Of a DNA stretch of 64,000 nucleotides, positions 1 through 64,000 are shown in pieces. The position numbers were made by a program, and so were the translations under genes. Each line of letters begins with the position of its first letter. The stretch's first letter is position 1. The notes under the pieces are model-generated. The model searched no databases. It worked only from the letters and a program-made list of their open reading frames with translations, and was not told the DNA's origin. The stretch is from assembly GCF_014203125.1 (NCBI RefSeq), contig NZ_JACHIH010000012.1, forward strand, positions 1 to 64,000, given 5' to 3'. Origin of the DNA: Rhodopseudomonas rhenobacensis. GTDB lineage: Bacteria > Pseudomonadota > Alphaproteobacteria > Rhizobiales > Xanthobacteraceae.

Positions 1-122
1 CACTCCTCCAACCGCACTCCTGCGCAGCGATCGCGACACATCATATCGCCGAGAGCCGCCAATCGAATAGCTTCACAGGCTCTCAGGATGACGGCGGTGG
101 ATTGCGCGGTAGCGAGCCGCCC

Positions 123-1778
123 TTAGCCCAGATTCAACTCCTTGAAAAAGTCGTTGCCCTTGTCGTCGATGATGATGAAGGCGGGGAAATCCTGCACCTC
201 GATCTTCCAGATCGCCTCCATGCCGAGCTCGGGATATTCCACCAGCTCGACCTTCTTGATGCAGTGCTCGGCCAAGTTCGCCGCGGCGCCGCCGATCGAG
301 CCGAGATAGAACCCGCCGTGTGTCTTGCAGGCCTCGCGCACCGCGACCGCGCGATTGCCCTTGGCGACCATCACCATCGAGCCGCCGGCGGCCTGGAACT
401 GATCGACGAAGGAATCCATCCGTCCCGCGGTGGTCGGGCCGAACGCGCCGGAGGCGTAGCCCTCGGGCGTCTTCGCCGGGCCGGCGTAATACACCGGATG
501 GTTCTTGAAGTAGTCCGGCAGCGGCTCGCCGTTGTCGAGCCGCGCGCGCAGCTTGGCGTGCGCGGAATCGCGGGCGACGATCATGGTGCCGGTCAGCGAC
601 AGCCGGGTCTTGATCGGGTAGTTCTTCAAGGTGGCCAGAATATCTTGCATCGGCTGGTTGAGGTCGATCTGCACCACCTCGCCGCCGAGCGCCTGCTCGA
701 CCTCGGGCAGGAACCGCGCCGGGTTGTGCTCGAGTTCTTCCAGATAGACGCCGTCCCTGGTGATCTTGCCGAGCACCTGGCGGTCCGCCGAGCACGACAC
801 GCCAAGCCCGATCGGCAGCGAGGCGCCGTGGCGCGGCAGCCGGATCACCCGGACGTCGTGGCAGAAATATTTTCCGCCGAACTGCGCGCCGACGCCGAGC
901 GACTGCGTCATCTTCAGGATCTCTTGCTCCATCTCCAGGTCGCGAAACCCGTTGCCGTCTGCCGAGCCATGGGTCGGCAGCGCGTCGAGATATTTCGCTG
1001 ACGCCAGCTTCACCGTCTTCATGCAGAGTTCGGCCGAAGTGCCGCCGATCACGATCGCCAGATGATAGGGCGGGCATGCCGCGGTGCCGAGCGTCAGCAC
1101 CTTTTCCTTCAGGAACGCCAGCAGCCGGTCTTTCGTGAGAACCGACGGCGTTGCCTGGAACAGAAAACTCTTGTTGGCGCTGCCGCCGCCCTTGGCCATG
1201 AACATGAACTTGTAGGCGTCATCGCCCTCGGCGTAGATCTCGCACTGCGCCGGCATGTTGTTGGCGGTGTTCTTCTCCTCGTACATCGACAGCGGCGCCA
1301 CCTGCGAATAGCGCAGATTGCGGCGCAGATAGGCGTCGCGCGCGCCTTCGCTCAAGGCGGCCTCGTCGCTGCCGTCGGTGATGACGTTAAAGCCCTTCTT
1401 GCCCATGATGATCGCGGTGCCGGTGTCCTGGCACATCGGCAGCACGCCGCCGGCGGCGATATTGGCGTTCTTCAGAAAGTCCAAGGCGACGAATTTGTCG
1501 TTCGGGCTGGCGTCCTTGTCGTCGAGGATGTTGCGCAGCTGCTGCAGATGCTGCGGCCGCAGATAATGGTTGATGTCGCCGAACGCGGCCTCGGCCAGCG
1601 CCCGCAGCGCCTCGCGCTGCACCACCAGCATCTCGCGCCCCAGCACGGTCTCGACCCGCACGCCGTCGGACGTGATCTTGCGGTACGGCGTCTCGTCTGG
1701 GCCGAGCGGGAACAACGGGGTGTGCTTGTACGGCGGAACCGGGGTGGCGGCGGACGGGATCGGCGTGGGTGCGTTCAT
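123..1778 (-). CDS. fumA: Class I fumarate hydratase (iron-sulfur fumarase)
   Basis: The 551-aa product should interconvert fumarate and malate in the TCA cycle, in the cytoplasm. It matches class I (FumA/FumB-type) [4Fe-4S] fumarases in length and in the block [15 protein letters not shown] near residue 115, whose Cys is an expected cluster ligand. Further Cys residues fall in AACPPYH and GVSCSADRQ, the other expected ligand regions. The frame is open 50 codons further upstream, but I chose the ATG at 1778 (MNAPTPIPS) because a GAGG lies just before it and the upstream residues look like translated intergenic DNA. It stands alone on the minus strand. Family assignment is secure; the exact start is slightly less so. 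Confidence 0.93.
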
Positions 1779-1975
1779 GGACTGGGCCTCGAGGGGAAAT
1801 TTGGCACCCTGTCTAGGCGGTTTTGCCGGGATTTTGAAGCGTTCAAAATCGGCGGCGCGTGCCCTGCCTCGCTCAGGGGTGAACCTCAAAGGCCTTTCGA
1901 CAGACCTCTCCTCAGCCGCCGTCGGCACCGCGCGGCGGGATCTGCCGTGTCTTCGACCGTATGAGGAGCCTGCGC

Positions 1976-2335
1976 ATGCCCACCTTCAAACTGCCGCTAT
2001 CCGGCGACGTCGTGCAGACCATCAGCCCGTGGACCGCCTTCCTCAGCCCGATCGGCAACCAGTTCGGGCTGATCAACATCACGCTCGGGCAATCCAGCGC
2101 GCCGCAGGTCGAGCAGGAGGTGCTGAACGACATCGGCAGCTACGGCAAGCAGCTCGGCCGGATCGGCGACGCGCTGATCGTGCTGCTGGCGCATCTGCCC
2201 GCCGATACCAGGCTGACACCCGACGAGCGCAAGGCGATCGACGCGCTCGACGACATGCTGCAGCAGATTGCCGACGTCAAAGCCAGGCACAACCGCGCAG
2301 CACACCGCCCGCGCAAGATTGCGGCGGCGGCTTGA
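1976..2335 (+). CDS. Conserved small hypothetical protein
   Basis: A 119-aa predicted cytoplasmic protein, transcribed divergently from the fumarase gene. It has no signal peptide or obvious membrane segment. The N-terminal half is mixed and hydrophobic ([19 protein letters not shown]). The C-terminal half is helical and charged and ends in a basic, alanine-rich tail (RPRKIAAAA). The ATG at 1976 has GAGGAG about 7 bases upstream; an ATG five codons earlier (1961) is possible but has no clear ribosome site. The style is typical of the small hypothetical proteins of Bradyrhizobium and relatives. I do not recognise a function. Confidence 0.6.
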
Positions 2336-2447
2336 GGCGGGGCATTAAATTTGATAGTTTGCTTTAAGTACCAGGCCATCGGGCATTTCGGGGCACGGAC
2401 GGCGATTCGTCTGGATCGGCGATCCCCGACGCGCCGAGGAGGGTTTC

Positions 2448-2969
2448 TTGCGCGTTACACCTGCGAGCCGCCCCTATCTGATATTCGTCGCAACTCTGAA
2501 TATCCTTGTCCTAGCGCTCTGCCTCTCCGCCATCGCATTTGTAGGGGTAGACGCGGTTTCGAACGCCGTGATCAGCGGGATGTTCGCGCTCGGCGCGCTA
2601 TACGTTTCAAGGAACGTGCTGGTTTTTGGCTGGGCCTATCTTGAGCATCGATATTTCGAGATCGATGCCACGCCGGGAATGCTGACGATCCGAAACCGGG
2701 CGCGCCAGATCCAGATCAAGAGCTCCGAGGTTTCCGATTACTATGTCTATTACAACAAGATCGTGCTTCGCGTGCCGGCTGATCCGGGCCAGGAAAGCGT
2801 TCCGCCGTACGTGAACGTGCGCGCCGATACGATCGTTATCAACATCTACCTACTGCAAGATACCGCCAAGGTCATCGCCGCGCTTCGTGAATTCGACGAT
2901 GCCTACCAATCCAAGAACCGCGTGAATGTTGGAATGATCATTCAGACGATCGGAGGCAACTTCTCTTAG
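2448..2969 (+). CDS. Hypothetical inner-membrane protein with a cytoplasmic beta-rich domain
   Basis: A 173-aa protein starting at TTG 2448, with a strong GAGGAGGG 5 bases upstream. Residues about 10-32 (YLIFVATLNILVLALCLSAI) and 38-62 form two hydrophobic segments, so the N-terminus is a membrane hairpin. The remainder (about 65-173) is soluble, with alternating beta-type pattern (ATPGMLTIRNRARQIQIKSS), and resembles the small PH-like folds that follow two-helix anchors in other bacterial membrane proteins. That fold is inferred from pattern only. Base composition is slightly lower in GC than neighbouring genes. Function unknown. Confidence 0.65.
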   Translation: MRVTPASRPYLIFVATLNILVLALCLSAIAFVGVDAVSNAVISGMFALGALYVSRNVLVFGWAYLEHRYFEIDATPGMLTIRNRARQIQIKSSEVSDYYVYYNKIVLRVPADPGQESVPPYVNVRADTIVINIYLLQDTAKVIAALREFDDAYQSKNRVNVGMIIQTIGGNFS

Positions 2970-3073
2970 AATGAAAAATCAGCCCGCGCGCCCATCGTGT
3001 TGGACGCTTTGTCTGACCGCAGCCCGAATCAGTGGAGCGGCGGCGCAGGGCGCAGCACGCCACGGTAGTCGTT

Positions 3074-3105
3074 GTAGCCCGGATGAGCGTAGCAAAATCC
3101 GGGGG
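3074..3105. repeat. Palindromic intergenic repeat, family E, copy 1
   Basis: GTAGCCCGGATGAGCGTAGC followed by AAAATCCGGGGG. It is the inverted counterpart of the sequence at 3239-3268 and is itself an imperfect hairpin (CCCGGAT...ATCCGGG). The two copies face each other about 130 bp apart and bracket a decayed antitoxin fragment. Confidence 0.75.
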
Positions 3106-3114
3106 AGCGGAGCT

Positions 3115-3237
3115 TCACCGTCCAACGCGCAGCACGAGCATGTCCGGCGGCGGCAGAAAGTCCTCGACGATCCTGACCCGACCGATCTCGCCTTTGCTTT
3201 ATTTAACCATCGGCTTCTTCATCGGCTTGACCTTCAT
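3115..3237 (-). pseudogene. Decayed 5' fragment of a CopG/BrnA-like antitoxin gene
   Basis: Read on the minus strand from ATG 3237, the frame gives MKVKPMKKPMVK, then TAA at 3199-3201, then continues in the same frame as SKGEIGRVRIVEDFLPPPDM, LVLRVGR and a second stop at 3115. I recognise the KGEIGRVRIVEDFLPPP block as the N-terminus of a CopG/BrnA-like antitoxin family common in rhizobia, where the stop position is normally Tyr. One nonsense codon plus loss of the rest of the gene indicate a pseudogene. It lies between inverted copies of repeat E and upstream of nothing that looks like a toxin. Family recognition is from memory and was not searched. Confidence 0.55.
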
Positions 3238-3238
3238 T

Positions 3239-3268
3239 CCCGGATTTCGCTTCGCTCATCCGGGCTAC
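3239..3268. repeat. Palindromic intergenic repeat, family E, copy 2 (inverted)
   Basis: CCCGGATTTCGCTTCGCTCA followed by TCCGGGCTAC, the inverse of the element at 3074-3105, with its own stem CCCGGAT/ATCCGGG. Its GTAG end supplies the stop codon (TAG at 3265-3267) of the adjacent minus-strand gene, so the repeat abuts or cut into that reading frame. Confidence 0.75.
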
Positions 3269-3513
3269 ATCATCTCTTGGGGCCGAGCCGCGATGCGTTG
3301 CTGCAGCCGCGCGGTGAACTCCTCAAGCGTCAGCGTCTCGGCGTCTGGATCATCGCGCCGCCGCCGGACTTCGGCGATCTGGTCGTGGGTCAACCGATAG
3401 GCGCTCGCATCCGAGGCTTCCATCATCAGCAGCATCTCAACGGCGTCCTGCTGGCGCTCGGGCGGCCAGGTCAGCACGCGGTCGAGAATGGCTTTGACGT
3501 CTTCGCTGCTCAT
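3265..3513 (-). CDS. Antitoxin-like small protein, orphan
   Basis: An 82-aa acidic protein starting MSSEDVKAILDRVLTWPPER, with the segment DASAYRLTHDQIAEVRRRR and a C-terminal LTLEEFTARLQQRI helix. This layout is known to me from antitoxin components that precede RelE/ParE toxins in Bradyrhizobium. No toxin gene follows it on the minus strand. Directly downstream are palindromic repeats and the decayed fragment of another antitoxin. The stop codon lies inside repeat E, so the C-terminus may be altered. It may be a residual antitoxin or an expressed orphan; the antitoxin label is inference. Confidence 0.5.
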   Translation of the reverse strand: MSSEDVKAILDRVLTWPPERQQDAVEMLLMMEASDASAYRLTHDQIAEVRRRRDDPDAETLTLEEFTARLQQRIAARPQEMM

Positions 3514-3648
3514 GCTGCAATCCTAGCACAATCTGCCGCCGCCGCGAAGCCGCCGAGCCGCGCCGGCAACGACCCTTGCCCCCCTCCCCCCGCTTGCCTA
3601 ACGCGTTGCGTCGCGCTTCACTCTGCGCGGGACTGAGGAGACCGCGTG

Positions 3649-4137
3649 ATGCTATCGAAACGCTCGCCCGGCCGGATGCCGGCCGCCGCCCTGTTGCCCG
3701 CTGCCTTGCTGGCGGCGCTGCTGCTATCATCCACCGCCGCGCGCGCCGATCGCTGCGACGACATCGCCCTGCATTTGAAGAGCCAGATCGACGGCGTGGT
3801 GATCGGCAGGACCATCGCCAATGCGATCTATCTCAGCCATCCGGCGGCGAAGCAGGTCAGGCTCGGCTGCGCCAGCCGCAATGTCAGCAACGAATTGTCG
3901 GCCACCGCCGAGGGCCGCAAGCCGTCCGCGGCGTTCCTGCAATTCGTCGCCGGCGCGGCGGCGGTGATCTTCACCATCCCGAAAGCCGATACGCTGCGCG
4001 GCGCCAGCCGCTGCCTCGGCCGGCTCGGGCTGTTGCGCGGCGACGACATCAAGACCCGCTATCGCCGGCTCGACATGCATTGCAGCCGGACCAAGACCGC
4101 GGCGACCATCACCATCGCGCGGGGCCGCGACGAGTAG
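3649..4137 (+). CDS. Secreted hypothetical protein with conserved cysteines
   Basis: A 162-aa protein with a clear Sec signal: basic start (MLSKRSPGR), hydrophobic core (ALLPAALLAALLLSS) and probable cleavage after ARA, before DRCDD. The mature part has four Cys (DRCDD, LGCAS, RCLGR, HCSR), consistent with disulfides in the periplasm. AGGAG lies about 10 bases before the ATG at 3649; a GTG one codon earlier is equally usable. I do not recognise the family. The neighbouring genes give no functional hint. Confidence 0.6.
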   Translation: MLSKRSPGRMPAAALLPAALLAALLLSSTAARADRCDDIALHLKSQIDGVVIGRTIANAIYLSHPAAKQVRLGCASRNVSNELSATAEGRKPSAAFLQFVAGAAAVIFTIPKADTLRGASRCLGRLGLLRGDDIKTRYRRLDMHCSRTKTAATITIARGRDE

Positions 4138-5778: not shown

Positions 5779-6486
5779 TCAGTTCACCGCAAAGCAATAC
5801 AGCAGCCCCTCGCCGCCGGTCGATTTGAGGTCGGCTTGCGAGCAGCCGCCGTCCGGTCCGCGCGACGGATGTGCCGCGTTCCAGGATTTCGCGGTCGGGT
5901 TAGCGGCCGGGCCGGTGACATCGGAATGCCCGAGCATCGCCGCGCCCTGCACGCTGCTGCTCCAGTTCTGACAGGTCCGGTCGGTGCCGGGCGCAAACGC
6001 GGTGCCGTCGGGCTGGCTGCCGGTGAGAATGTCGTGGCGGTTCGGCTGATCGCCGAAGCCGTTGATCACCTCGCCCTTCTCGCTGAGCGCGGTCTGCTTG
6101 GTGATGGCATTGCCGCCGTGCAGTTCGGCGATGTCCTTGGCGATCACCACGCCCTTGGCGTTCTGCCACGGCCCGTTGCCGATGCGGTCGCGGGCGTTGA
6201 TCGCCGGCTTGCCGTCGGCCTGCTGGGTCGAGAGATAAGCGTGCCAGGAGCGCACGCCGGCGGCTGTAACGCCGATGCCGGCCGCCTGCGCCAATTCCTG
6301 GCAATGATTGTCGGCGCCGGCCAGCCCGCCGAGATTGCCGCCGTTGCCGATCGAAACGCTGGTTACGAAGAAGCGGGTCTGCGGCGCGGTCTGCGCCTGG
6401 GCGGTCGCGCTCGCCAGCAACGCCGCGGTCAGCGCGAGACCGCCCCACATCCTCGCCGTTTGAATCGTCCTGAACTTCGCCGTCAT
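5779..6486 (-). CDS. Secreted lectin-fold-like protein
   Basis: A 235-aa exported protein. Residues 1-30 form a signal peptide (MWGGLALTAALLASATAQAQ after a basic start) with cleavage near AQA-QTAPQ. The mature region carries RFFVTSVSIGNGGNLGGLAG and an ADNHCQELA segment, followed by RSWHAYLS, NGPWQN and a C-terminal LLYCFAVN. These features recur in bacterial proteins with a C-type-lectin/endostatin-like fold, which use the same N- and C-terminal Cys arrangement. I infer that fold; ligand and role are unknown. ATG 6486 is chosen because the signal peptide starts there; upstream codons look random. Next to it, in the same direction, is the Tim44-domain gene. Confidence 0.6.
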   Translation of the reverse strand: MTAKFRTIQTARMWGGLALTAALLASATAQAQTAPQTRFFVTSVSIGNGGNLGGLAGADNHCQELAQAAGIGVTAAGVRSWHAYLSTQQADGKPAINARDRIGNGPWQNAKGVVIAKDIAELHGGNAITKQTALSEKGEVINGFGDQPNRHDILTGSQPDGTAFAPGTDRTCQNWSSSVQGAAMLGHSDVTGPAANPTAKSWNAAHPSRGPDGGCSQADLKSTGGEGLLYCFAVN

Positions 6487-6632
6487 GGTTGTCTCCGAGT
6501 TCCTCGCCGCGACGCCGCGAACCGGGCCGCGCAGCTGTCGCAAGCAGGATAGCAACGTTGCGCCCGGCGTCGGACAGGAAAAAGGCGCCGCGGTTTCCCG
6601 CGACGCCCTGTCTCAAATCATGGCGCCAGCGC

Positions 6633-7628
6633 TCAGGTCTGCTGGATCGCCGACAATTCCCACTCCGAGCCGCGGCGGCGGGCGAAGGTCCACACCTCGG
6701 TGGCTTCGGTCGGCTGCTCGCTGCCCTCGACGATCTTGCCGGTGGCGCGGTCGAGCGTCTTGTCGACCAGCGAGAAGCGCATCGCCACGCTGGCGTAATC
6801 GGTCTCGCCTTCGCGCCAGGCTTCGGCGAGGTCGCCCTGCAACAGCTTGACGTCGGACACCTTGTTCTCGACGCCGCGGGCCTTGTTGGCTTCGAGGTCG
6901 CCGCTGAAATACGACACCATTTCGGGGGTCGCCAGCGTGTGCAGGTGACCGATGTCGCCGTTCGACCAGGTGGTCTGGACCTCGCCGAGCAACTTCTCGA
7001 ACGCCTCATAGTCGGCCGGGCCGATTTCCAGCGGCGCGGTGGAGCCGCCGAGGCCGAAGCCCGAGCCGGTGCGATAGTTCTGCTGCGCGCCGGGCCCGAC
7101 GTCAGGGCCGGCGCCCGGGGCCGCATAGGCGGAGGCCGAAGCCGACGCCGGAGCGGCGGCGTTGCGGCGCTGCCACCACGACATCGCCAGCCGCACCACG
7201 ATGATGATTAGGCCGATCTGCAGGATCAGGCCGATGATCGACGAGATGCCGCCGAGGCCCGAGAACAGTCCGCCGCCGAACAGCATGCCGAGCAGGCCGG
7301 CGCCGAGGAAGCCTGCGGCGAGGCCGCCGAGCATACCCATGCCGGGCCGGTTGAAGAAGCCGCCCTTGGCGGCGGCGCCGGCGGCCGGCGCGGCCATGCC
7401 GGGGCTGCCGGGCTGGGTCATGGTGCGGTTGAACGGCTGCGCGGCGCTGGGCGCCGTCGAGGTCGACGGCGGCGCCGAGAAGGTCCGCGAGCCGCGCGAA
7501 CCGGAGCTCGAGCCGCCGCCGACGCGGGCGTCGGCCGACGAGGCGACGACCAGCATGGCCGGCAACGCCAGCGACATCACAACGGCGATGGCACCGACGA
7601 AGCCGCGGGTGCGTTGCACAAATTTCAT
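6633..7628 (-). CDS. Tim44 domain-containing membrane protein
   Basis: A 331-aa protein. Order: signal or anchor (VGAIAVVMSLALPAMLVVASS, about residues 9-30), a Gly/Ser/Pro-rich linker with GSRGSRTFSAPPSTSTAPS, a Gly-rich double hydrophobic stretch (GMLGGLAAGFLGAGLLGMLF and IIGLILQIGLIIIVVRLAMSWW), and a C-terminal Tim44-like domain of about 150 aa (DYEAFEKLLGEVQTTWSNGD...EVWTFARRRGSEWELSAIQ). Bacterial Tim44-like domains are thought to bind membrane lipids. The precise role here is unknown. ATG 7628 gives the signal peptide; the upstream in-frame ATG at 7667 does not. Confidence 0.85.
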   Translation of the reverse strand: MKFVQRTRGFVGAIAVVMSLALPAMLVVASSADARVGGGSSSGSRGSRTFSAPPSTSTAPSAAQPFNRTMTQPGSPGMAAPAAGAAAKGGFFNRPGMGMLGGLAAGFLGAGLLGMLFGGGLFSGLGGISSIIGLILQIGLIIIVVRLAMSWWQRRNAAAPASASASAYAAPGAGPDVGPGAQQNYRTGSGFGLGGSTAPLEIGPADYEAFEKLLGEVQTTWSNGDIGHLHTLATPEMVSYFSGDLEANKARGVENKVSDVKLLQGDLAEAWREGETDYASVAMRFSLVDKTLDRATGKIVEGSEQPTEATEVWTFARRRGSEWELSAIQQT

Positions 7629-56675: not shown

Positions 56676-57782
56676 ATGCATCGAGTGTTGACCGCGCTGC
56701 GGCGTGGTTTCAAGGAGCGAGTGGGCTGGAAGCGGCTCGGGATCGTTGCAAGTCTCCTCATCATCGGTTTCGCGATCCACTCGCTGGTCAAGACGCTGAA
56801 GGGCGTCGACAGCGGCGTCATACTTGTTGCGTTGACCGCGAAATCCTCCGGTCAGATCGCACTCGCGGCGTTGTGCGTGATCGGCGCGTTCTGCACGCTG
56901 ACGTTTTATGATTTCTTCGCGCTGCGAACCATCGGCAAGCGCCACATCCCCTATCGCATCGCCGCGCTGACCGGCTTCACCTCCTACACCATCGGCCACA
57001 ACATCGGCGCCACGGTGTTCACCGGCGGCGCGATCCGGTTCCGGATCTATTCCGACTACGGCCTCACCGCGATCGACGTCGCCAAGATCTGCTTCATCTC
57101 CGGACTGACGTTCTGGCTCGGCAATCTGTTCGTGCTCGGCATCGGCATGGCCTGGCATCCGGCGGCGGCGAGCTCGATGGATCTGTTGCCGGAATCCGTC
57201 AACCGGCTGATCGGGCTCGGCTGCCTCGCCGGCATCGCCGGCTATCTGACCTGGATCGCGATGGGCAAGCGGCGCCGCGAACTCGGCCAGAACGGCTGGA
57301 AGGTGGTGCTGCCGTCGGCCAAGCTGACGCTGCTGCAGGTGCTGATCGGCGTGGTCGATCTCGGCTTCTGCGCGCTGGCGATGTATCTTCTGATGCCGGC
57401 GCAGCCGGGGATCGATTTCGTCTCGCTGGCGGTGGTGTTCATCCTCGCCACCCTGCTCGGCTTCGCCAGCCACGCGCCGGGCAGCCTCGGGGTGTTCGAC
57501 GCCGCGATGCTGCTGGCACTGCCGCAATTCGCCCGCGAGGAACTGGTCGCCACGCTGGTGATCTTCCGGCTGCTGTATTTCGTGATCCCGTTCGGAATCT
57601 CGATCACCATCATGGGCACCCGCGAATTGTGGCTCAATGTGGTGCAGCCGTGGCGGGCGCGACGGCTCAATGGCCACGGCCATCCGCCGATCGCCGCGAT
57701 CGCGCAGCGCCCCGGCATCCCGAAACGGCTACCGCCGCCGGTGCAGCCGACGCAGGCCGCCAAACGGCACTCCAAGGGCTGA
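56676..57782 (+). CDS. YbhN/UPF0104-family integral membrane protein
   Basis: A 368-aa protein with about eight membrane segments (GIVASLLIIGFAIHSLVKTL; IALAALCVIGAFCTLTFYDF; GNLFVLGIGMAWHPA, and others). The motif TGFTSYTIGHNIGATVFTGG and AIRFRIYSDYGL is the flippase-like signature of the lysylphosphatidylglycerol synthetase N-terminal/YbhN family. The C-terminal LGFASHAPGSLGVFDAAMLL is also conserved. The family is involved in lipid translocation; the substrate is unknown. GGAGGATGA precedes ATG 56676. Confidence 0.85.
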   Translation: MHRVLTALRRGFKERVGWKRLGIVASLLIIGFAIHSLVKTLKGVDSGVILVALTAKSSGQIALAALCVIGAFCTLTFYDFFALRTIGKRHIPYRIAALTGFTSYTIGHNIGATVFTGGAIRFRIYSDYGLTAIDVAKICFISGLTFWLGNLFVLGIGMAWHPAAASSMDLLPESVNRLIGLGCLAGIAGYLTWIAMGKRRRELGQNGWKVVLPSAKLTLLQVLIGVVDLGFCALAMYLLMPAQPGIDFVSLAVVFILATLLGFASHAPGSLGVFDAAMLLALPQFAREELVATLVIFRLLYFVIPFGISITIMGTRELWLNVVQPWRARRLNGHGHPPIAAIAQRPGIPKRLPPPVQPTQAAKRHSKG

Positions 57783-57850
57783 GGCGGCGGCGTGCAGGCC
57801 TCCCGCCGCATGTCCCATACTTTCGCCCCATCCGTGGCGTTGAAGGCGCC

Positions 57851-59851
57851 ATGACCGAAAATATTGCGCTGCGTCACCCCATCAAGCTCGGCCTGATCCT
57901 GATCGGGCTGGCGCTGTCCGCCGCCCAACCGCTGGCCGCCCAGCCGGCGCCGCTGGCCCAGCCGGCGCCGCTGGCCGGCGCTGGCGGGCTGCAGATCAGC
58001 TGGGAGGTGCGCAACCGATTCCGGCTGTTCCGCGAGGAGCGCGATTTCCTCGGCCACGTCGAAACCCTGCGCGCCGGCAGCGTGCTCGCCTCCGAGCAGG
58101 CGCTGGGCGTACAGAGCGACGGCCGCGGCTGGGCCCGCAACACCGTCAACCGGCTGTGCATCGACCTCGCCGGCCGGGTCAGCGAGCCCTGCACCCGCGA
58201 CAACGTCAAGGAAAGCTATCTGACGCCGACCGAGCATCCGGTGACGGTGCGGCTGTCCGGCGCGATCCCGGTCGGCGCCACCTGCGCCTGGTCGTTCGAC
58301 GAAGGCGAAGGCCCGCCGCGCACCTCGACCCAGGACTGCGTCGAGCCGATCAATTTCCGCGCCCGCTACGGCCGCCCGACCGCGGTCAGCGTCGATGTGT
58401 CGAGCGGCGCCGATCCGGCGCAGCACGTCACCGGCCAAGTGTTGGTGCGCGACATCCTGATCGCCGGGCTGGGGGATTCCATCGCGTCGGGCGAAGGCAA
58501 TCCGGACCGCCCGATCAACCTCTCCGACGACGGCTTCTGCTTCCGCTCCTATCTCGGCGGCCCCGGCCAGTTCTACCGGCCGAGCCGCGCCGGCTACAAA
58601 GGCGGCCGGGCCTGCGAGGCGCCGGAAACGCTGCAGGTGTGGCAGCGGCAGAGCGCGCTGTGGTTCAATGCGGCCTGCCACCGCTCGCTGTATTCCTACC
58701 AGACCCGCACCGCGATCGGGCTCGCCGCGCGCTATCCGCACATCGCGGTGACCTATCTGCCGCTGGCCTGCACCGGCGCCACCATCCCCGACGGGCTGTT
58801 CGGCAGCCAGCGCGCCCGCGAATGCCTGCCGGGCAAATCCGGCGCCAGCTGCCAGAGCAACGTCGCCGCCCAGCTCGCCGAATTGCGCGAGGCGCTGAGC
58901 GCTGCGAAGAAGCGGCAGCCCGGCCGCGGCCTTGATCTGCTGCTGCTGTCGATCGGCGCCAACGACATCAACTTCTCCGGTCTGGTCGCCGACGTCATCG
59001 TCGACAATTCCACCGAGCGCACGCTGTTTCGCCGCTCCGGGGTGATCGGCTCGGTGGACGAATCCCGCGCGGCGCTGGCGCGCGAGCTGCCGCAATCCTT
59101 CGCCAAGCTGCGCGAAGCCTTGAAGCCGTTGGTCGGCGGCGAGCTGGCGCGCGTGGTCTACACCGCCTACGCCAATCCGGCACTCGACAATGACGCGCCC
59201 TGCCCCGGCGGCCGCGGCGGCTTCGACATTCATCCGTCGTTCAACGCCGATCCGGCGCGGCTCGCCGCCGTCGCCGGCTTCGTGCAGCAGGAATTTTTGC
59301 CGCAACTGAAGAATCTGGCGCTATGCCGCGGCGGCGTGCTGTGCCGCGATCCCGCCGCCGACCAGATGACCTTCGTGGATTCGCATCAGCAGGTGTTCGC
59401 CAATCACGGCTTCTGCGCCCGCGCCACGAGCGATCCGGAATTCGATCGGCAGTGCTTCTTGCCGAAGGGCGACAGCTTCGATCCCGATATCGTTTCGGCG
59501 GCGTCGCAGCCGATGTCGTGCGGCTTCGGCGCCAGCAATTACCGCCCCTATCTGCCGCGGGCGCGCTGGATCCGCGACGCCAATGACAGCTATTTCGCCG
59601 CGATGACCTATCCGCAGGGGCTGCCGGCGGCGATCCAGCCAGCGGACATCCACGACGCCACCTGGGGCATCGTCTCGGCGGTGTATGGCGGCGCGGTGCA
59701 TCCCTCCGCCGAAGGCCACGCCGCGATGGCGGACGCGGCGCTGCCGGCCGCAGCCAGCGTGCTGCATCTCGACGCCGCCGATCCCGCCGAGGTGGTGCAA
59801 GAGCCGTTGCCGCCGCCGAACGCGGCTCCGGAGAATCGTTCGGAGCGCTGA
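57851..59851 (+). CDS. Secreted SGNH-type hydrolase, 666 aa
   Basis: A signal peptide (LGLILIGLALSAAQPLAAQP) is followed by a short PLAQPAPLAGA repeat and an N-terminal beta-sandwich-like domain of about 160 aa (about 40-195, WEVRNRFRLFREERDFLGHV). The SGNH domain begins at about residue 207: GLGDSIASGEGNPDRP with Ser210; SIGANDINF near 367; and VHPSAEGHAAMA with His617. Cys pairs (YLPLACTGA, RECLPGKSGASC) suggest disulfides. It should act on an ester in the periplasm or outside the cell. The Asp of the usual D-x-x-H is not obvious (GAVH), so activity is unproven. Confidence 0.8.
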   Translation: MTENIALRHPIKLGLILIGLALSAAQPLAAQPAPLAQPAPLAGAGGLQISWEVRNRFRLFREERDFLGHVETLRAGSVLASEQALGVQSDGRGWARNTVNRLCIDLAGRVSEPCTRDNVKESYLTPTEHPVTVRLSGAIPVGATCAWSFDEGEGPPRTSTQDCVEPINFRARYGRPTAVSVDVSSGADPAQHVTGQVLVRDILIAGLGDSIASGEGNPDRPINLSDDGFCFRSYLGGPGQFYRPSRAGYKGGRACEAPETLQVWQRQSALWFNAACHRSLYSYQTRTAIGLAARYPHIAVTYLPLACTGATIPDGLFGSQRARECLPGKSGASCQSNVAAQLAELREALSAAKKRQPGRGLDLLLLSIGANDINFSGLVADVIVDNSTERTLFRRSGVIGSVDESRAALARELPQSFAKLREALKPLVGGELARVVYTAYANPALDNDAPCPGGRGGFDIHPSFNADPARLAAVAGFVQQEFLPQLKNLALCRGGVLCRDPAADQMTFVDSHQQVFANHGFCARATSDPEFDRQCFLPKGDSFDPDIVSAASQPMSCGFGASNYRPYLPRARWIRDANDSYFAAMTYPQGLPAAIQPADIHDATWGIVSAVYGGAVHPSAEGHAAMADAALPAAASVLHLDAADPAEVVQEPLPPPNAAPENRSER

Positions 59852-60160
59852 CGCCGGGTTGCAGGTGCGTAGCAATTCGCGCGGCCGCGGCGCAGCTATA
59901 ATCTTAAGCGCCTCGCCCAAACTATGTTAACCCGCCGACATTATGACCACGTTCGACGCTTCCGCCGGCCGACCGCGTGCATTACTCACGCTCAGCGGCA
60001 CCGCACGACGGCGGATCAGTTGCGACGCGCAGGACGGAACAACAAAACCGGCCGCGCAAGGAACTGCAGGAACGCACGAGACACGACAGGGCGCCACCCG
60101 GAACCGCAATGCGATTCCGGCCAATAGGTGTTTCCGACGGCCGGACTCAAGGAGCGAGCC
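59852..60160. other. Leader region of the cobalamin-binding/GGEEF operon
   Basis: A 309-bp region. It includes an AT-richer stretch (CAGCTATAATCTTAAGC at 59893-59909) that could provide a housekeeping-type promoter, and TGTTAACCCGCCGACA at 59925-59940. Short frames across it lack ribosome sites. GGAGCGAGCC immediately precedes the ATG at 60161. Confidence 0.5.
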
Positions 60161-61255
60161 ATGCAGGCTGAACTGAAGACGCTGGGACCGGCCGCGCTGC
60201 GGCAGTTTCAAAGCCTTGAATTCGATGCTGCAAGGACCGTCACCGAGCGGTTCTTTCCCGACTCGCGTCCTATTCCCAATCAGTTCCAGCGCCAGGACGA
60301 GTGCCGCGAATATCTGATCCATCATCTGGAATTCCTGAAGCCGGTGCTGCAATTCGGAACATTGGCACCGATGACGAAGTATCTGCACTGGCTCGATAGC
60401 GTGCTGACCGCCCGCAATGTGCCGCCCGACAGCCTGGAACAATCGCTGCAGTGGCTCGCGGAGTATTTCTCCGCGCGGATGGATTGCAGCGACGCCGAGG
60501 TGGTGAACGCGGCGCTGCTGGCGGCGCGCGACGATTTCATCGCCACCAGCGATCCGGCGAGCGCGGTCGCGCCGTCTAAGCCGAACGTCGAGGTCGCGGC
60601 GTTTCAGGCTGCGTTGCTCGACGGCGATCAACGCACCGCGCTGGCGATCGTCAATCGCTGTCTCGACCACGGCCGCAAGCTGACCGATGTCGAACTCGAA
60701 CTGATCCAGCCGGCGCTGTACGGCATCGGCGAGGCCTGGCAGGCCAACGAAGTCAGCGTCGCGCAGGAACATCTCGCCACCGCGATCGTGCATTCGATCA
60801 TGACCGTGGCGCTGCTGCGCGCCAAACCGCCGGCGCTGAACGGCAAGCGCGTGCTGTTGGCCTGCGTCGCCGGCAACCAGCACAGCGTCGGGCTGCGCAT
60901 GGTTGCGGACGCGTTCCAGCTCTCCGGCTGGGAGGTGCAATATCTCGGCGCCGACGTGCCGACCGGCGCGCTGATCGAGCAGATCGCAGGCTGGTCTCCG
61001 CACATTGTCGGGCTCGCGGTGTCGTTTACCCAGCAGATCGGCGCGGTCAAGGATGCTATCGTGCAGATCAACCAGCGTTTCGGAGCGGCGCGGCCGCCGG
61101 TGCTGATCGGCGGGATGGCGATCAATCACTTCGACTGGCTGGTCAATATGGTCGGCGCGGACGGCTCCGGCGCCGACGCGCAGCACGCCGTCGCGGCGGC
61201 CGAACGCCTCGTCAACGATAAGGACAGCCGGTGTCGTGGATCACGCCCGAACTGA
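60161..61255 (+). CDS. Stand-alone cobalamin-binding sensor, CarH-like domain without DNA-binding part
   Basis: A 364-aa cytoplasmic protein. Residues 1-135 form a helical domain of unknown family. Residues about 143-225 are a four-helix B12 cap with W193-x9-E203-H204 (EAWQANEVSVAQEHL), the signature of the light-sensing CarH/LitR cap. Residues about 229-345 form the cobalamin Rossmann domain: GNQHSVG carries the lower-ligand His241 in N-x-H-x-x-G (usual D/E-x-H-x-x-G), then WEVQYLGADVPTGALIEQIA and VLIGGMAI. No MerR DNA-binding domain is present. It overlaps the following GGEEF gene by 25 bp. Likely it senses adenosylcobalamin and possibly light and signals to the cyclase. Binding and light response are inferred. 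Confidence 0.8.
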   Translation: MQAELKTLGPAALRQFQSLEFDAARTVTERFFPDSRPIPNQFQRQDECREYLIHHLEFLKPVLQFGTLAPMTKYLHWLDSVLTARNVPPDSLEQSLQWLAEYFSARMDCSDAEVVNAALLAARDDFIATSDPASAVAPSKPNVEVAAFQAALLDGDQRTALAIVNRCLDHGRKLTDVELELIQPALYGIGEAWQANEVSVAQEHLATAIVHSIMTVALLRAKPPALNGKRVLLACVAGNQHSVGLRMVADAFQLSGWEVQYLGADVPTGALIEQIAGWSPHIVGLAVSFTQQIGAVKDAIVQINQRFGAARPPVLIGGMAINHFDWLVNMVGADGSGADAQHAVAAAERLVNDKDSRCRGSRPN

Positions 61256-62154
61256 AGCAGCTCTCCGCCGTGGTGGCAGCGACGCTGGCTGACGACGGCA
61301 CGCTGATCGAAGCCAATGCCGGCTTCCTGCGCGTCGCCCGGCTGCCCGCGCAACAGCCGGCCAACGCCTCGGTGGCGCGCGCTTTCGTCCAACCGACGTT
61401 CGCCGCGCTGCTGCGCGTCGTGCCCGACGCCGACGGCGAGATCCACCACGGCCTGTTGACCATGGGCGATCCGATGGCGGCGACGCGGACGCTGCGCGGC
61501 CGGGTCTGGCACCGCGACCGCGTGCTGCAGGTCTTGGCCGAATACGACATCGACGAGCTGGAGCGGCTCAATGCCAAGATGCTCGAACTCAACCGCGACT
61601 ACGCCGAGGCGCAGTTCGAGCTGGCGCAGACCAATATCAAGCTGCAGCAGCGCGAGGCCGAGATCCTCGCCCTGACGCTGACCGACTCGCTGACCGGGGT
61701 CGGCAATCACCGCCGGCTGGAGCAGGAGCTCGCCACCGAGATCAAGCGCTTCGAGCGCACCGGCGAGCCGCTCAGCGCCTTCATGGCCGACCTCGATCAC
61801 TTCAAGAGCATCAACGACAGCTACGGCCACGACGTCGGCGACAAGGTGCTGGCGGCGTTCGGCGCGCTGCTACGCGCGCAGACCCGCGCCACCGAAGTCG
61901 CGGCGCGGATCGGCGGCGAGGAATTCGTCGTGCTGCTGCCGCACACCAGGCTCAAGGAAGCGCTGCTGACCGCGGAACGGATCCGCGCCGCGCTGCAGGC
62001 CTTGTCGATCGCCTCGATGCCGATCCGCCCCACCGCCAGCTTCGGCGTCGCCACGATGGCCAAGGCGGAGAGCCGCGACGCCTTCATGCGCCGCGTCGAC
62101 ACCGCGCTCTACGCCGCCAAACGCGCCGGCCGCAATTGCGTGGTCGCGGGGTAG
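61231..62154 (+). CDS. Diguanylate cyclase (GGEEF) with a PAS-like N-domain
   Basis: A 307-aa cytoplasmic protein. Residues 1-105 resemble a small PAS fold (ADDGTLIEANAGFLRVARLP). Residues 106-145 form a coiled coil (DELERLNAKMLELNRDYAEA) that would dimerise the catalytic part. The GGDEF domain follows: TDSLTGVGNHRRLEQEL, DLDHFKSINDSYGHDVGD and the active-site GGEEF at 228-232. The product-binding I-site is R219-A-T-E222 instead of RxxD. It should make c-di-GMP, which in relatives shifts cells between motility and attachment. GTG 61231 overlaps the B12 gene; translational coupling is likely. Confidence 0.88.
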   Translation: MSWITPELKQLSAVVAATLADDGTLIEANAGFLRVARLPAQQPANASVARAFVQPTFAALLRVVPDADGEIHHGLLTMGDPMAATRTLRGRVWHRDRVLQVLAEYDIDELERLNAKMLELNRDYAEAQFELAQTNIKLQQREAEILALTLTDSLTGVGNHRRLEQELATEIKRFERTGEPLSAFMADLDHFKSINDSYGHDVGDKVLAAFGALLRAQTRATEVAARIGGEEFVVLLPHTRLKEALLTAERIRAALQALSIASMPIRPTASFGVATMAKAESRDAFMRRVDTALYAAKRAGRNCVVAG

Positions 62155-62217
62155 AGGGGTTTTGGAGCGGGGTTTTCGGTCGGGTTCAGTTCAGTCCGAA
62201 GCATCACCCCACTTGCC

Positions 62218-62315
62218 GTGGTCATTCCGGGCCGCGAGCAGCTTTAGCTGCGAGCCAGCCCGGAATCCCTAGCCCCTGCAGAGGATATGGATTCCGGGCT
62301 CGCTCGTTCTAGAGT
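62218..62315. repeat. Palindromic intergenic repeat, family D, copy 2
   Basis: About 98 bp: GTGGTCATTCCGGGCCGCGA, then AGCCCGGAATCCCTAGCCCC and GGATTCCGGGCTCGCTCG. It looks truncated at the right because the closing GGAATGAC is missing. Confidence 0.7.
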
Positions 62316-62352
62316 CTCCGAAAAAGCTATCGATGGAATCAGTCGTTCAACG

Positions 62353-62461
62353 CGTCATTGTGAGGAGCTCTTGCGACGAAGCAATCCAGGGCCACACATG
62401 AGGCCCCTGGATTGCTTCGCACTTCGGCCAGCGCTGCGCGCCGGCCTCGGCTCGCAATGAC
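62353..62461. repeat. Palindromic intergenic repeat, family B, copy 4 (inverted)
   Basis: About 109 bp: CGTCATTGTGAGGAGCTCTT at the left and GGCCTCGGCTCGCAATGACA at the right, arms GAAGCAATCCAGGGCC and CCTGGATTGCTTCGC. Same orientation as copy 3. Confidence 0.85.
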
Positions 62462-62599
62462 AAAACCGCTGATGTGGCGGCTGCTTTTGCGTCCGACTCG
62501 ACGACTCGCAATCCGGAATGACGACTGTATCTGTTGGCGGCCAGATTTATTCCTCAGCCCAGGTTTGAGCCGGCAGCCACACACAAAGGAGCAGCGACA

Positions 62600-63337
62600 A
62601 TGACACCAACCAACAGGGTTGCGATCGTCACCGGAGCGTCGCGCGGCATCGGCGCCGCGATCGCGCGGCGGCTGGCGCACGACGGCCTCACCGTGATCGT
62701 CAATTATGCCGGCAGCGCCGACGCCGCCGCCAGGCTGGTCGACGAGATCGAGCGGTCGGGCGGTCGCGCCATCTCCTGCCAGGCCGACGTCGGCGATCCG
62801 CAGGCGGTGCGGCGGATGTTCGATGCCGCCGAGGCCGCCTATGGCGGCGTCGACGTGCTGGTCAACAATGCCGGCATCATGAACCTGGCGCCGCTCGCGC
62901 AAGCCGACGACGCGAGCTTCGACCAGACCATCGCGGTCAACCTCAAAGGCACCTTCAACGGCCTGCGCGAGGCGGCGAAGCGGCTGCGCGACGGCGGCCG
63001 CATCGTCAATTTTTCGTCGAGCGTGGTCGGGCTGTACCAGCCGGGCTACGGCGTCTATGCCGCCAGCAAGGCGGCGGTCGAGGCGCTGACGCATATCCTC
63101 GCCAAGGAGCTGGGACCCCGCGGCATCACCGTCAACGCGGTGGCGCCGGGGCCGGTCGCCACCGAGCTGTTTCTGTCAGGCAAGGATCAGGCGACGCTCG
63201 ATCGCATCACCCAGATGAACCCGCTCGGCCGTCTCGGCGAGGTCGACGACATCGCCGGCGTCGTCGCCTTGCTGGTCGGGCCGGACGGCGGCTGGATCAA
63301 CGGCCAGATCCTCCGCGCCAATGGCGGCGTGGTCTGA
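62600..63337 (+). CDS. Short-chain dehydrogenase/reductase (SDR)
   Basis: A 245-aa NAD(P)-dependent oxidoreductase. The Rossmann motif VAIVTGASRGIGAAIARRLA near the N-terminus, VLVNNAGIMNLAPL, the catalytic Ser in IVNFSSSVVGL and Tyr-x3-Lys in YGVYAASKAAVEAL are all present. The C-terminus ALLVGPDGGWINGQILRANG is that of classical SDRs. AAGGAG lies 9 bases before ATG 62600; the longer open frame starts inside the intergenic region. Substrate unknown. Confidence 0.92.
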   Translation: MTPTNRVAIVTGASRGIGAAIARRLAHDGLTVIVNYAGSADAAARLVDEIERSGGRAISCQADVGDPQAVRRMFDAAEAAYGGVDVLVNNAGIMNLAPLAQADDASFDQTIAVNLKGTFNGLREAAKRLRDGGRIVNFSSSVVGLYQPGYGVYAASKAAVEALTHILAKELGPRGITVNAVAPGPVATELFLSGKDQATLDRITQMNPLGRLGEVDDIAGVVALLVGPDGGWINGQILRANGGVV

Positions 63338-63355
63338 GCGGCGCAACCAGAATCC

Positions 63356-63483
63356 GTCGTCATTCGGATTGCGAGTTCGCAACAACGAGCAAGCCCGAGC
63401 AAGTCCGGAATCCATGACCCCTGCAGGGGTCATGGATTCCGGGCTCACGCGCAGCTGAAGCTGCTCGTGGCCCGGAATGACGG
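63356..63483. repeat. Palindromic intergenic repeat, family D, copy 3
   Basis: About 128 bp: GTCGTCATTCGGATTGCGAG, GTCCGGAATCCATGACCCC-TGCA-GGGGTCATGGATTCC as a perfect central palindrome, and GTGGCCCGGAATGACGGC at the right end. Confidence 0.8.
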
Positions 63484-63508
63484 CAACCGAAAATGCACTA
63501 ACAGTGAA

Positions 63509-63616
63509 CGTCATTGCGAGCCGAGGCCGGCGCAGCGCCGGCCGAACAGCGAAGCAATCCAGGGGCCTCACGCGTAGCCCTGGATTGCTTCGTCGCAAGA
63601 GCTCCTCACAACGACG
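63509..63616. repeat. Palindromic intergenic repeat, family B, copy 5
   Basis: About 108 bp: CGTCATTGCGAGCCGAGGCC at the left and AAGAGCTCCTCACAACGACG at the right, arms GCGAAGCAATCCAGGGGCC and CCTGGATTGCTTCGTCGC. Confidence 0.85.
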
Positions 63617-63627
63617 ACCTCAAGCCC

Positions 63628-64000
63628 TCATTTCGCCGCCGGAGCCGGAGCCGGGGCGGCCTTCGGCTTGGCGGGCGCTGGCGCCTTCGGCGCGCCGGCT
63701 GCAGCCGCGGTGGTCGCCGCCGGAGTGGCCTGCGCGGCCTGGGCCGGCAGGAACTTGGCGACGATCGCCGGGTCGAGCTGCGACACCGCGGTGTCGGGCA
63801 GCCGCTGCCAGGTCTCGTCCTTGCCCAGCATCGGCGTCATCAGATAGCCGCGCAGCGTCAGCGCCTGGCCGTCCGGGCTGACCTTGAGCTGCGCCTTCCA
63901 GATGTCGCCGTTGCGCGGGTCGAGGATGTTGCCGCCGAGATATTCCAGCCCCTTGCGCTTCATGTCGCGGATCAGCGAAATGCCGAGGATCGGCGCGTCC
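63628..64000 (-). CDS. DUF2147-family protein, partial (N-terminus outside the window)
   Basis: The frame enters from the right edge (DAPILGISLIRDMKRKGLEY), so the gene begins beyond position 64000; at least 123 residues are visible. GGNILDPRNGDIWKAQLKVS and TLRGYLMTPMLGKDETWQR are the C-terminal core of DUF2147 periplasmic proteins. A 50-residue Ala/Pro/Lys-rich tail follows (PKAPAPAKPKAAPAPAPAAK at the end). The role of DUF2147 proteins is unknown. The ATG at 63963 is internal and should not be taken as the start. Confidence 0.8.
   Translation of the reverse strand, partial: DAPILGISLIRDMKRKGLEYLGGNILDPRNGDIWKAQLKVSPDGQALTLRGYLMTPMLGKDETWQRLPDTAVSQLDPAIVAKFLPAQAAQATPAATTAAAAGAPKAPAPAKPKAAPAPAPAAK

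Follow-up and report, generated by a model that had tools for sequence, protein, structure and literature searches.

Two overlapping genes at the end of the window, i.e., the whole stretch of 64,000 nucleotides of Rhodopseudomonas rhenobacensis DNA analyzed here, probably form a split photocobilin cassette, in which an adenosylcobalamin (AdoCbl) photoreceptor encoded by gene A acts on a GGEEF cyclase encoded by gene B by means of a PAS-coil module. The analysis established the domains and motifs of the two proteins, the conserved pairing of their genes, the dedication of the partner module to the sensor and the swapping of outputs behind that module.

Gene pair and sensor domains

All features of the pair lie on the forward (+) strand. 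Gene A (60161–61255) begins with ATG at 60161 and ends with TGA at 61255, a ribosome-binding site AAGGAG (60149–60154) being placed 6 nt 5' of the start, and encodes a photocobilin-type sensor of 364 aa that, according to Pfam, profiles and an AlphaFold2 model (pLDDT 94.2, pTM 0.91), is composed of photoglobin, B12-binding_2 and B12-binding domains in this order. Gene B (61231–62154) begins with GTG at 61231 and ends with TAG at 62154; its ribosome-binding site AAGGA (61220–61224) lies within gene A, 6 nt 5' of the GTG, and the ORF coordinates define an overlap of 25 nt between the stop of gene A and the start of gene B (61231–61255). Length, coordinates and overlap agree with those of the preliminary description. 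Neither a cobalamin riboswitch nor any other known RNA element was found near the genes when 57000–64000 was scanned. Just 3' of the pair, two pairs of inverted repeats of 86–87 nt (62221–62439 and 63396–63616; 85% and 92% complementary) lie on either side of a gene for a short-chain dehydrogenase (62600–63337) and may represent a mobile or intergenic repeat family.

The cobalamin-binding part of gene A was recognized by Pfam as a B12-binding_2 four-helix cap (aa 148–216, 60602–60808; E 2.7e-15) followed by a B12-binding Rossmann domain (aa 230–344, 60848–61192; E 6.3e-17). The motifs read in the preliminary description, W193-x9-E203-H204 (W193 at 60737–60739, E203-H204 at 60767–60772) and the lower-ligand His241 (60881–60883) in N239-Q-H241-S-V-G244, are exact, and Pfam likewise returned no MerR domain. 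Light-responsive cobalamin domains carry the signature GxxW / EH / GxxH / GxxxP, of which TtCarH W131, E141, H142 and H177 are part (PMC11796333), and gene A has it in full (G190..W193, E203-H204, G238..H241, G263..P267). Relatives were collected by a scan of 84,980 genomes, which yielded 424 matches; the best 80 of these were kept and plasmid records of Azospirillum, Skermanella and Ilyobacter were added. In this set W193, E203 and H204 are invariant (83/83) and H241 is present in 82 of 83, so that the motifs are not due to chance. Judged from these residues, the input to gene A is presumably AdoCbl and light.

The N-terminal domain (aa 1–128, five helices; 60161–60544), previously regarded as helical and of unknown type, turned out on profile and Pfam evidence to be a photoglobin, i.e., a homologue of phycobiliproteins. 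When gene A was searched as a single sequence against the PDB, the best matches were the photocobilins 8j2w, 8j2x and 8j2y, residues 7–100 matching the C-terminal globin of 8j2y. A family profile made from 69 gene A relatives, searched against the same database, gave the photocobilins SasPcob (1.2e-57) and AbPcob (5.5e-44) as the closest solved structures, with matches in both domains, and its N-domain matched the SasPcob globin (i-E 2.7e-8) together with many phycocyanin, allophycocyanin and smURFP chains. The profile of the N-domain alone recovered the SasPcob globin at 3.4e-8 and phycocyanin and allophycocyanin chains from 5.8e-7 (CpcA 5.8e-7), while the Pfam Phycobilisome model matched ten out of 20 relatives (best 3.2e-8) and did not match the gene A sequence of the window on its own. 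Comparison by Foldseek was confined to the B12 part and the identity of the globin was settled by sequence profiles; Foldseek alignments follow sequence order and therefore miss the permuted globin of gene A. Since the N-domain is a photoglobin, gene A is of the photocobilin type with the order globin-B12, a single protein predicted to unite an AdoCbl-type domain and a photoglobin domain, and it belongs with the photocobilins rather than being, as first proposed, a CarH-like sensor deprived of MerR. Its assignment to CarH/LitR was rejected, given the absence of MerR, the globin nature of the N-domain and a CarH model score of 62.8 against a cut-off of 400.

The bilin site of this globin is altered. 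Alignment to phycocyanin alpha superposes the bilin motif Cys-x-x-Asp on the family such that its Cys coincides with Cys48 and its Asp with position 51, and gene A reads C48-R-E-Y51 (60302–60313), with Tyr (TAT) in place of a near-invariant Asp. Of the 74 relatives whose sequence has a residue at position 51 (from the best 80 of 424 and the plasmid records), 70 carry Asp; Cys48 is present in gene A and in 49/74 relatives, and Trp77 is invariant. With SasPcob Trp296 anchored on Trp77, position 51 would be the equivalent of SasPcob Asp270, a key residue for biliverdin, whereas AbPcob has His at that position and a biliverdin occupancy of only about 20% (PMC10979010). The bilin-contacting Asp is typical of photocobilins and not defining, AbDPcob having His, and its replacement by Tyr51 suggests that gene A senses mainly through AdoCbl, in which case a red-light (bilin) input would be weak or absent. 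As GAT to TAT needs one base change, Tyr51 may conceivably be an artifact of sequencing in this draft assembly. Beside two sensor relatives we observed an IsdG/HmoB-type heme-degrading monooxygenase domain, encoded in a Gemmatimonadota MAG by a separate gene with a 4-nt overlap (locus L089:3324–3698) and in a Nitrospirales MAG fused to the kinase partner (L050:6931–7200). The position of these enzymes suggests a local source of linear tetrapyrrole for the globin, possibly other than biliverdin.

Partner module, conserved pairing and distribution

Gene B is predicted from Pfam, AlphaFold2 and fold matches to be a diguanylate cyclase of 307 aa, and its composition of PAS-like domain, coiled coil and GGEEF corresponds to that originally described. 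The AlphaFold2 model (mean pLDDT 93.3) comprises a PAS-type fold (aa 1–105), a continuous signaling helix of 43 residues (aa 107–149, LNRDYAEAQFELAQTN) and the GGDEF domain, the first two making up, by model and alignment, a partner module (61231–61677) that is common to cyclase and kinase partners. PAS-GGDEF-EAL proteins, SiaD (7e6g among the top), PleD, WspR and DgcB were the fold matches. The catalytic domain (aa 150–302, 61678–62136; Pfam E 2.5e-44) retains GGEEF (aa 228–232, 61912–61926), ADLDHFK and NDSYGHDVGD, with the metal-binding residues intact. The RxxD site of product inhibition, common among GGDEF proteins and not defining for them, is replaced at the I-site position by RATE (RxxE; 61885–61896), while 23 of 23 relatives carry RxxD.

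The best 80 of the 424 relatives are spread over Alpha-, Beta- and Gammaproteobacteria, Gemmatimonadota, Planctomycetota, Bacteroidota, Acidobacteriota, Spirochaetota, Chloroflexota, Bacillota, Nitrospirota and others. Pairing was counted in the 83 loci, from these 80 and the plasmid records, with at least 600 nt downstream of the sensor. Directly 3' of the sensor and on the same strand, a GGDEF gene was found in 24 loci and a histidine kinase gene in 43, together 67/83, and the PAS-coil module occupied this place in 71/83; elsewhere in the same loci, the remaining ~917 kb held 52 GGDEF, kinase or module matches. A Pfam scan of 78 downstream genes concurs (HisKA 40, GGDEF 24). Azospirillum is over-represented among the loci, nonetheless the pattern holds across the tree, and Ilyobacter (Fusobacteriota) shows a 20-nt overlap between the sensor and a GGDEF gene. 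Sensors with no adjacent partner exist, e.g., Skermanella L012 and L014, and a single polypeptide fusing a globin-first sensor to an output was not seen among the 83 loci (best 80 of 424 genome matches kept).

The output behind the sensor changes while the module is kept. On a maximum likelihood tree of the 83 sensors (quick search), output type needs ten changes, at least six of them forced by well-supported branches, and in partners of both types the N-terminal part consists of one kind of PAS-like domain together with the coil LNxELAxxQRxLxxxN. The module of gene B is nearest to those of L016 (cyclase), L017 (kinase), L021 (other) and L019 (kinase), irrespective of output. When 19 genomes were searched with a PAS-coil profile, 18 gave matches, one per sensor, always within about 150 bp and nowhere else, and a Gemmatimonadota genome with two sensors had two modules; the profile was made from sensor-linked partners and would therefore miss remote PAS relatives, but the one-to-one pattern stands. 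The linkage that the preliminary description had proposed to look for in other genomes thus held, with a cyclase or kinase directly downstream in most loci and the module only beside sensors in the 19 genomes. Because of the pairing, the swapping of outputs with the module kept and the restriction of the module to the vicinity of sensors, trans control via the PAS-coil module is very likely, and the earlier proposal that a B12 sensor, very probably of the AdoCbl-binding and light-responsive type, is coupled in trans to the GGEEF cyclase is supported.

Three loci deserve separate mention. In a Gemmatimonadota MAG the partner (L021:7056–7721) has the PAS-coil module, is neither cyclase nor kinase and has a cysteine-rich end (CMHCKK...CPEC), hinting at a third output type. 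In Thiohalocapsa sp. ML1 (L042, sensor 5914–6978) the cyclase follows in the same frame after a single TGA within an otherwise open frame of 708 codons, which is probably fortuitous, since about a third of the pairs share frame. The closest sensor relative among the best 80 of 424 (56% identity) is located in a MAG labeled Bordetella parapertussis (L016), a doubtful species label for an environmental bin.

The host is the only one of 199 genomes in its family to carry the sensor, its genus being represented by this genome alone, and relatives occur in two of 385 genomes of its class at E 1e-60. The nearest relatives on the tree (among the best 80 of 424 and the plasmid records) are from beta- and gammaproteobacteria and Gemmatimonadota, and this rarity and placement suggest a horizontal acquisition of the sensor. 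By gene content the host is an anoxygenic phototroph able to make biliverdin, because its genome encodes heme oxygenase (C45:97–780) with an AerR-like B12 protein beside it, followed by bchF and a gene of the bchN type; positions 1–4000 of this contig (L096) are a photosynthesis gene cluster. The idea that heme oxygenase always accompanies the sensor was rejected, as PF01126 was matched in only 13 of 35 genomes or records, with MAG incompleteness as a caveat. The cassette occurs also in lineages without obvious life in light, i.e., Ilyobacter, Bacteroidales and an archaeal MAG; in these the sensor could respond to B12 status or to some other cue.

Proposed mechanism and alternatives

Protein A would be a dimeric B12 photoreceptor, the photoglobin forming its N-terminal and the AdoCbl domain its C-terminal part. 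In the dark, AdoCbl would be bound base-off/His-on through His241, with Trp193 and Glu203-His204 holding the adenosyl group. On exposure to green, blue or UV light the Co-C bond is expected to break, and the cap helix and the dimer to shift. We infer that protein A physically contacts the PAS-like domain and signaling helix of protein B, translated next to it, and that this contact determines the register of the GGEEF dimer and hence c-di-GMP production. Separate photocobilins have been found to alter the activity and oligomeric state of a cyclase in trans, with complex formation (PMC10979010). As to polarity, our guess, by analogy with AbDPcob and with the sign held loosely, would be a cyclase of low activity in darkness that becomes highly active under light: in AbDPcob, cyclase activity falls with AdoCbl and rises on illumination, by more than tenfold, whereas SasPcob lacking biliverdin had the opposite sign on the cyclase and polarity varies among the photocobilins tested (PMC10979010).

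The nature of the signal admits two other readings. Gene A might mainly sense the supply of AdoCbl, whose binding rather than photolysis would switch the partner; the AdoCbl pocket is invariant also in lineages of dark and/or oxygen-free life, and binding of AdoCbl alone lowers AbDPcob cyclase activity with respect to the apo form (PMC10979010). We consider this unlikely, as Trp and Glu-His are residues of light-responsive domains and ordinary corrinoid carriers score far lower, the host is phototrophic, AdoCbl held in this way is intrinsically photolabile, and the link to a bilin-type globin suits light better. A contribution of that globin itself, which would bind a bilin and, as in SasPcob, confer red-light sensitivity by coupling between bilin and B12, is a minor possibility to which the heme oxygenase of the host, the retention of Cys48 and Trp77 and the IsdG/HmoB-type enzymes encoded beside relatives lend some weight; it is opposed by Tyr51 at the position of SasPcob Asp270, Asp in nearly all relatives, and by the low biliverdin content of AbPcob with His there (PMC10979010).

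A few sensors stand alone, which would suit a protein A that acts on other targets, with the neighboring cyclase an operon bystander, but the pairing across phyla, the short overlaps, the one dedicated PAS-coil module per sensor and the exchange of outputs with the module kept make this very improbable. Hardly conceivable is a role of protein A as corrinoid methyl-carrier of a methyltransferase system: the B12-binding_2/B12-binding fold is common to both and weak matches to MtgC/MtbC models were obtained, yet no methyltransferase lies beside gene A, the photoreceptor signature and a signaling partner are present, and the assignment was rejected with all matches far below curated cut-offs. Light sensing through AdoCbl with action on the adjacent cyclase is the reading we favor.

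Relation to known systems

The photocobilins SasPcob and AbDPcob (PDB 8j2w, 8j2x, 8j2y) share with gene A a light-type AdoCbl domain and a photoglobin, AbDPcob controlling a GGDEF cyclase, and the class is divided according to the end of the protein, N- or C-terminal, that carries the B12 domain (PMC10979010). Gene A differs from these two in its reversed, globin-B12 order, in a globin with Cys48 and Tyr for the bilin-contacting Asp, and in having no fused output, the cyclase, equipped with a PAS-coil module, being encoded by an overlapping gene of its own. The statement that no characterized example of the pair was known proved valid in part: our literature search found no characterized native split pair, while the fused photocobilin-cyclase AbDPcob has been characterized and the stand-alone SasPcob and AbPcob were shown in vitro to influence a cyclase in trans (PMC10979010). 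The photocobilin class, its members with the B12 domain last and the in vitro activation of a cyclase in trans are already published, and the native split photocobilin-cyclase pair appears uncharacterized. The photoglobin family, to which the N-domain of gene A belongs with links to a B12 domain and signaling genes, was reportedly examined for its gene neighborhoods by Schneider et al. in 2022 (doi 10.1016/j.csbj.2021.12.022), and that study may describe part of the pairing.

New here are the split, globin-first and partner-dedicated arrangement, the exchangeable outputs and the substitution in the bilin site. We give about even chances to the broader proposal of a widespread and hitherto uncharacterized two-protein light/B12 class, in which globin-first photocobilins would act in trans on a PAS-coil adaptor with interchangeable outputs, the pair of the window being bilin-blind and its cyclase possibly escaping product inhibition. 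The natural partners of stand-alone photocobilins have been called unclear (PMC10979010), and the recurrence of the cassette with interchangeable enzymes suggests a common way for such sensors to act on a separate partner. With a cognate partner beside each sensor, the question of partners can be put to a direct test in a compact, soluble system of two proteins. The swapping of cyclase for kinase behind one adaptor in nature also points to a ready design by which different enzymes could be brought under green-light control. The maintenance of the cassette in non-phototrophs raises the question of what the sensor actually responds to, B12 photochemistry or B12 status.

CarH/LitR proteins (PDB 5c8d) have in common with gene A the AdoCbl cap with Trp and Glu-His and the lower-ligand His, but gene A lacks MerR, has an added globin and carries after the cap Trp the WQ of SasPcob and no His, so that the bis-His light state of CarH is not expected. 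In SiaC-SiaD (PDB 7e6g) a cyclase is switched through a helical stalk by a separately encoded activator, as proposed for the pair described here, with the differences that SiaC is no photoreceptor and SiaD has no PAS-like domain. AerR/PpaA (PDB 7te2) resembles gene A in binding B12 and exerting its regulation on a partner protein; the sequence similarity is weak (7.7e-11 with the profile), AerR has no globin and its partners are transcription factors. The paralogous, AerR-like B12 protein of the host, 303 aa long and encoded on the minus strand (C45:837–1748), adjoins bchF.
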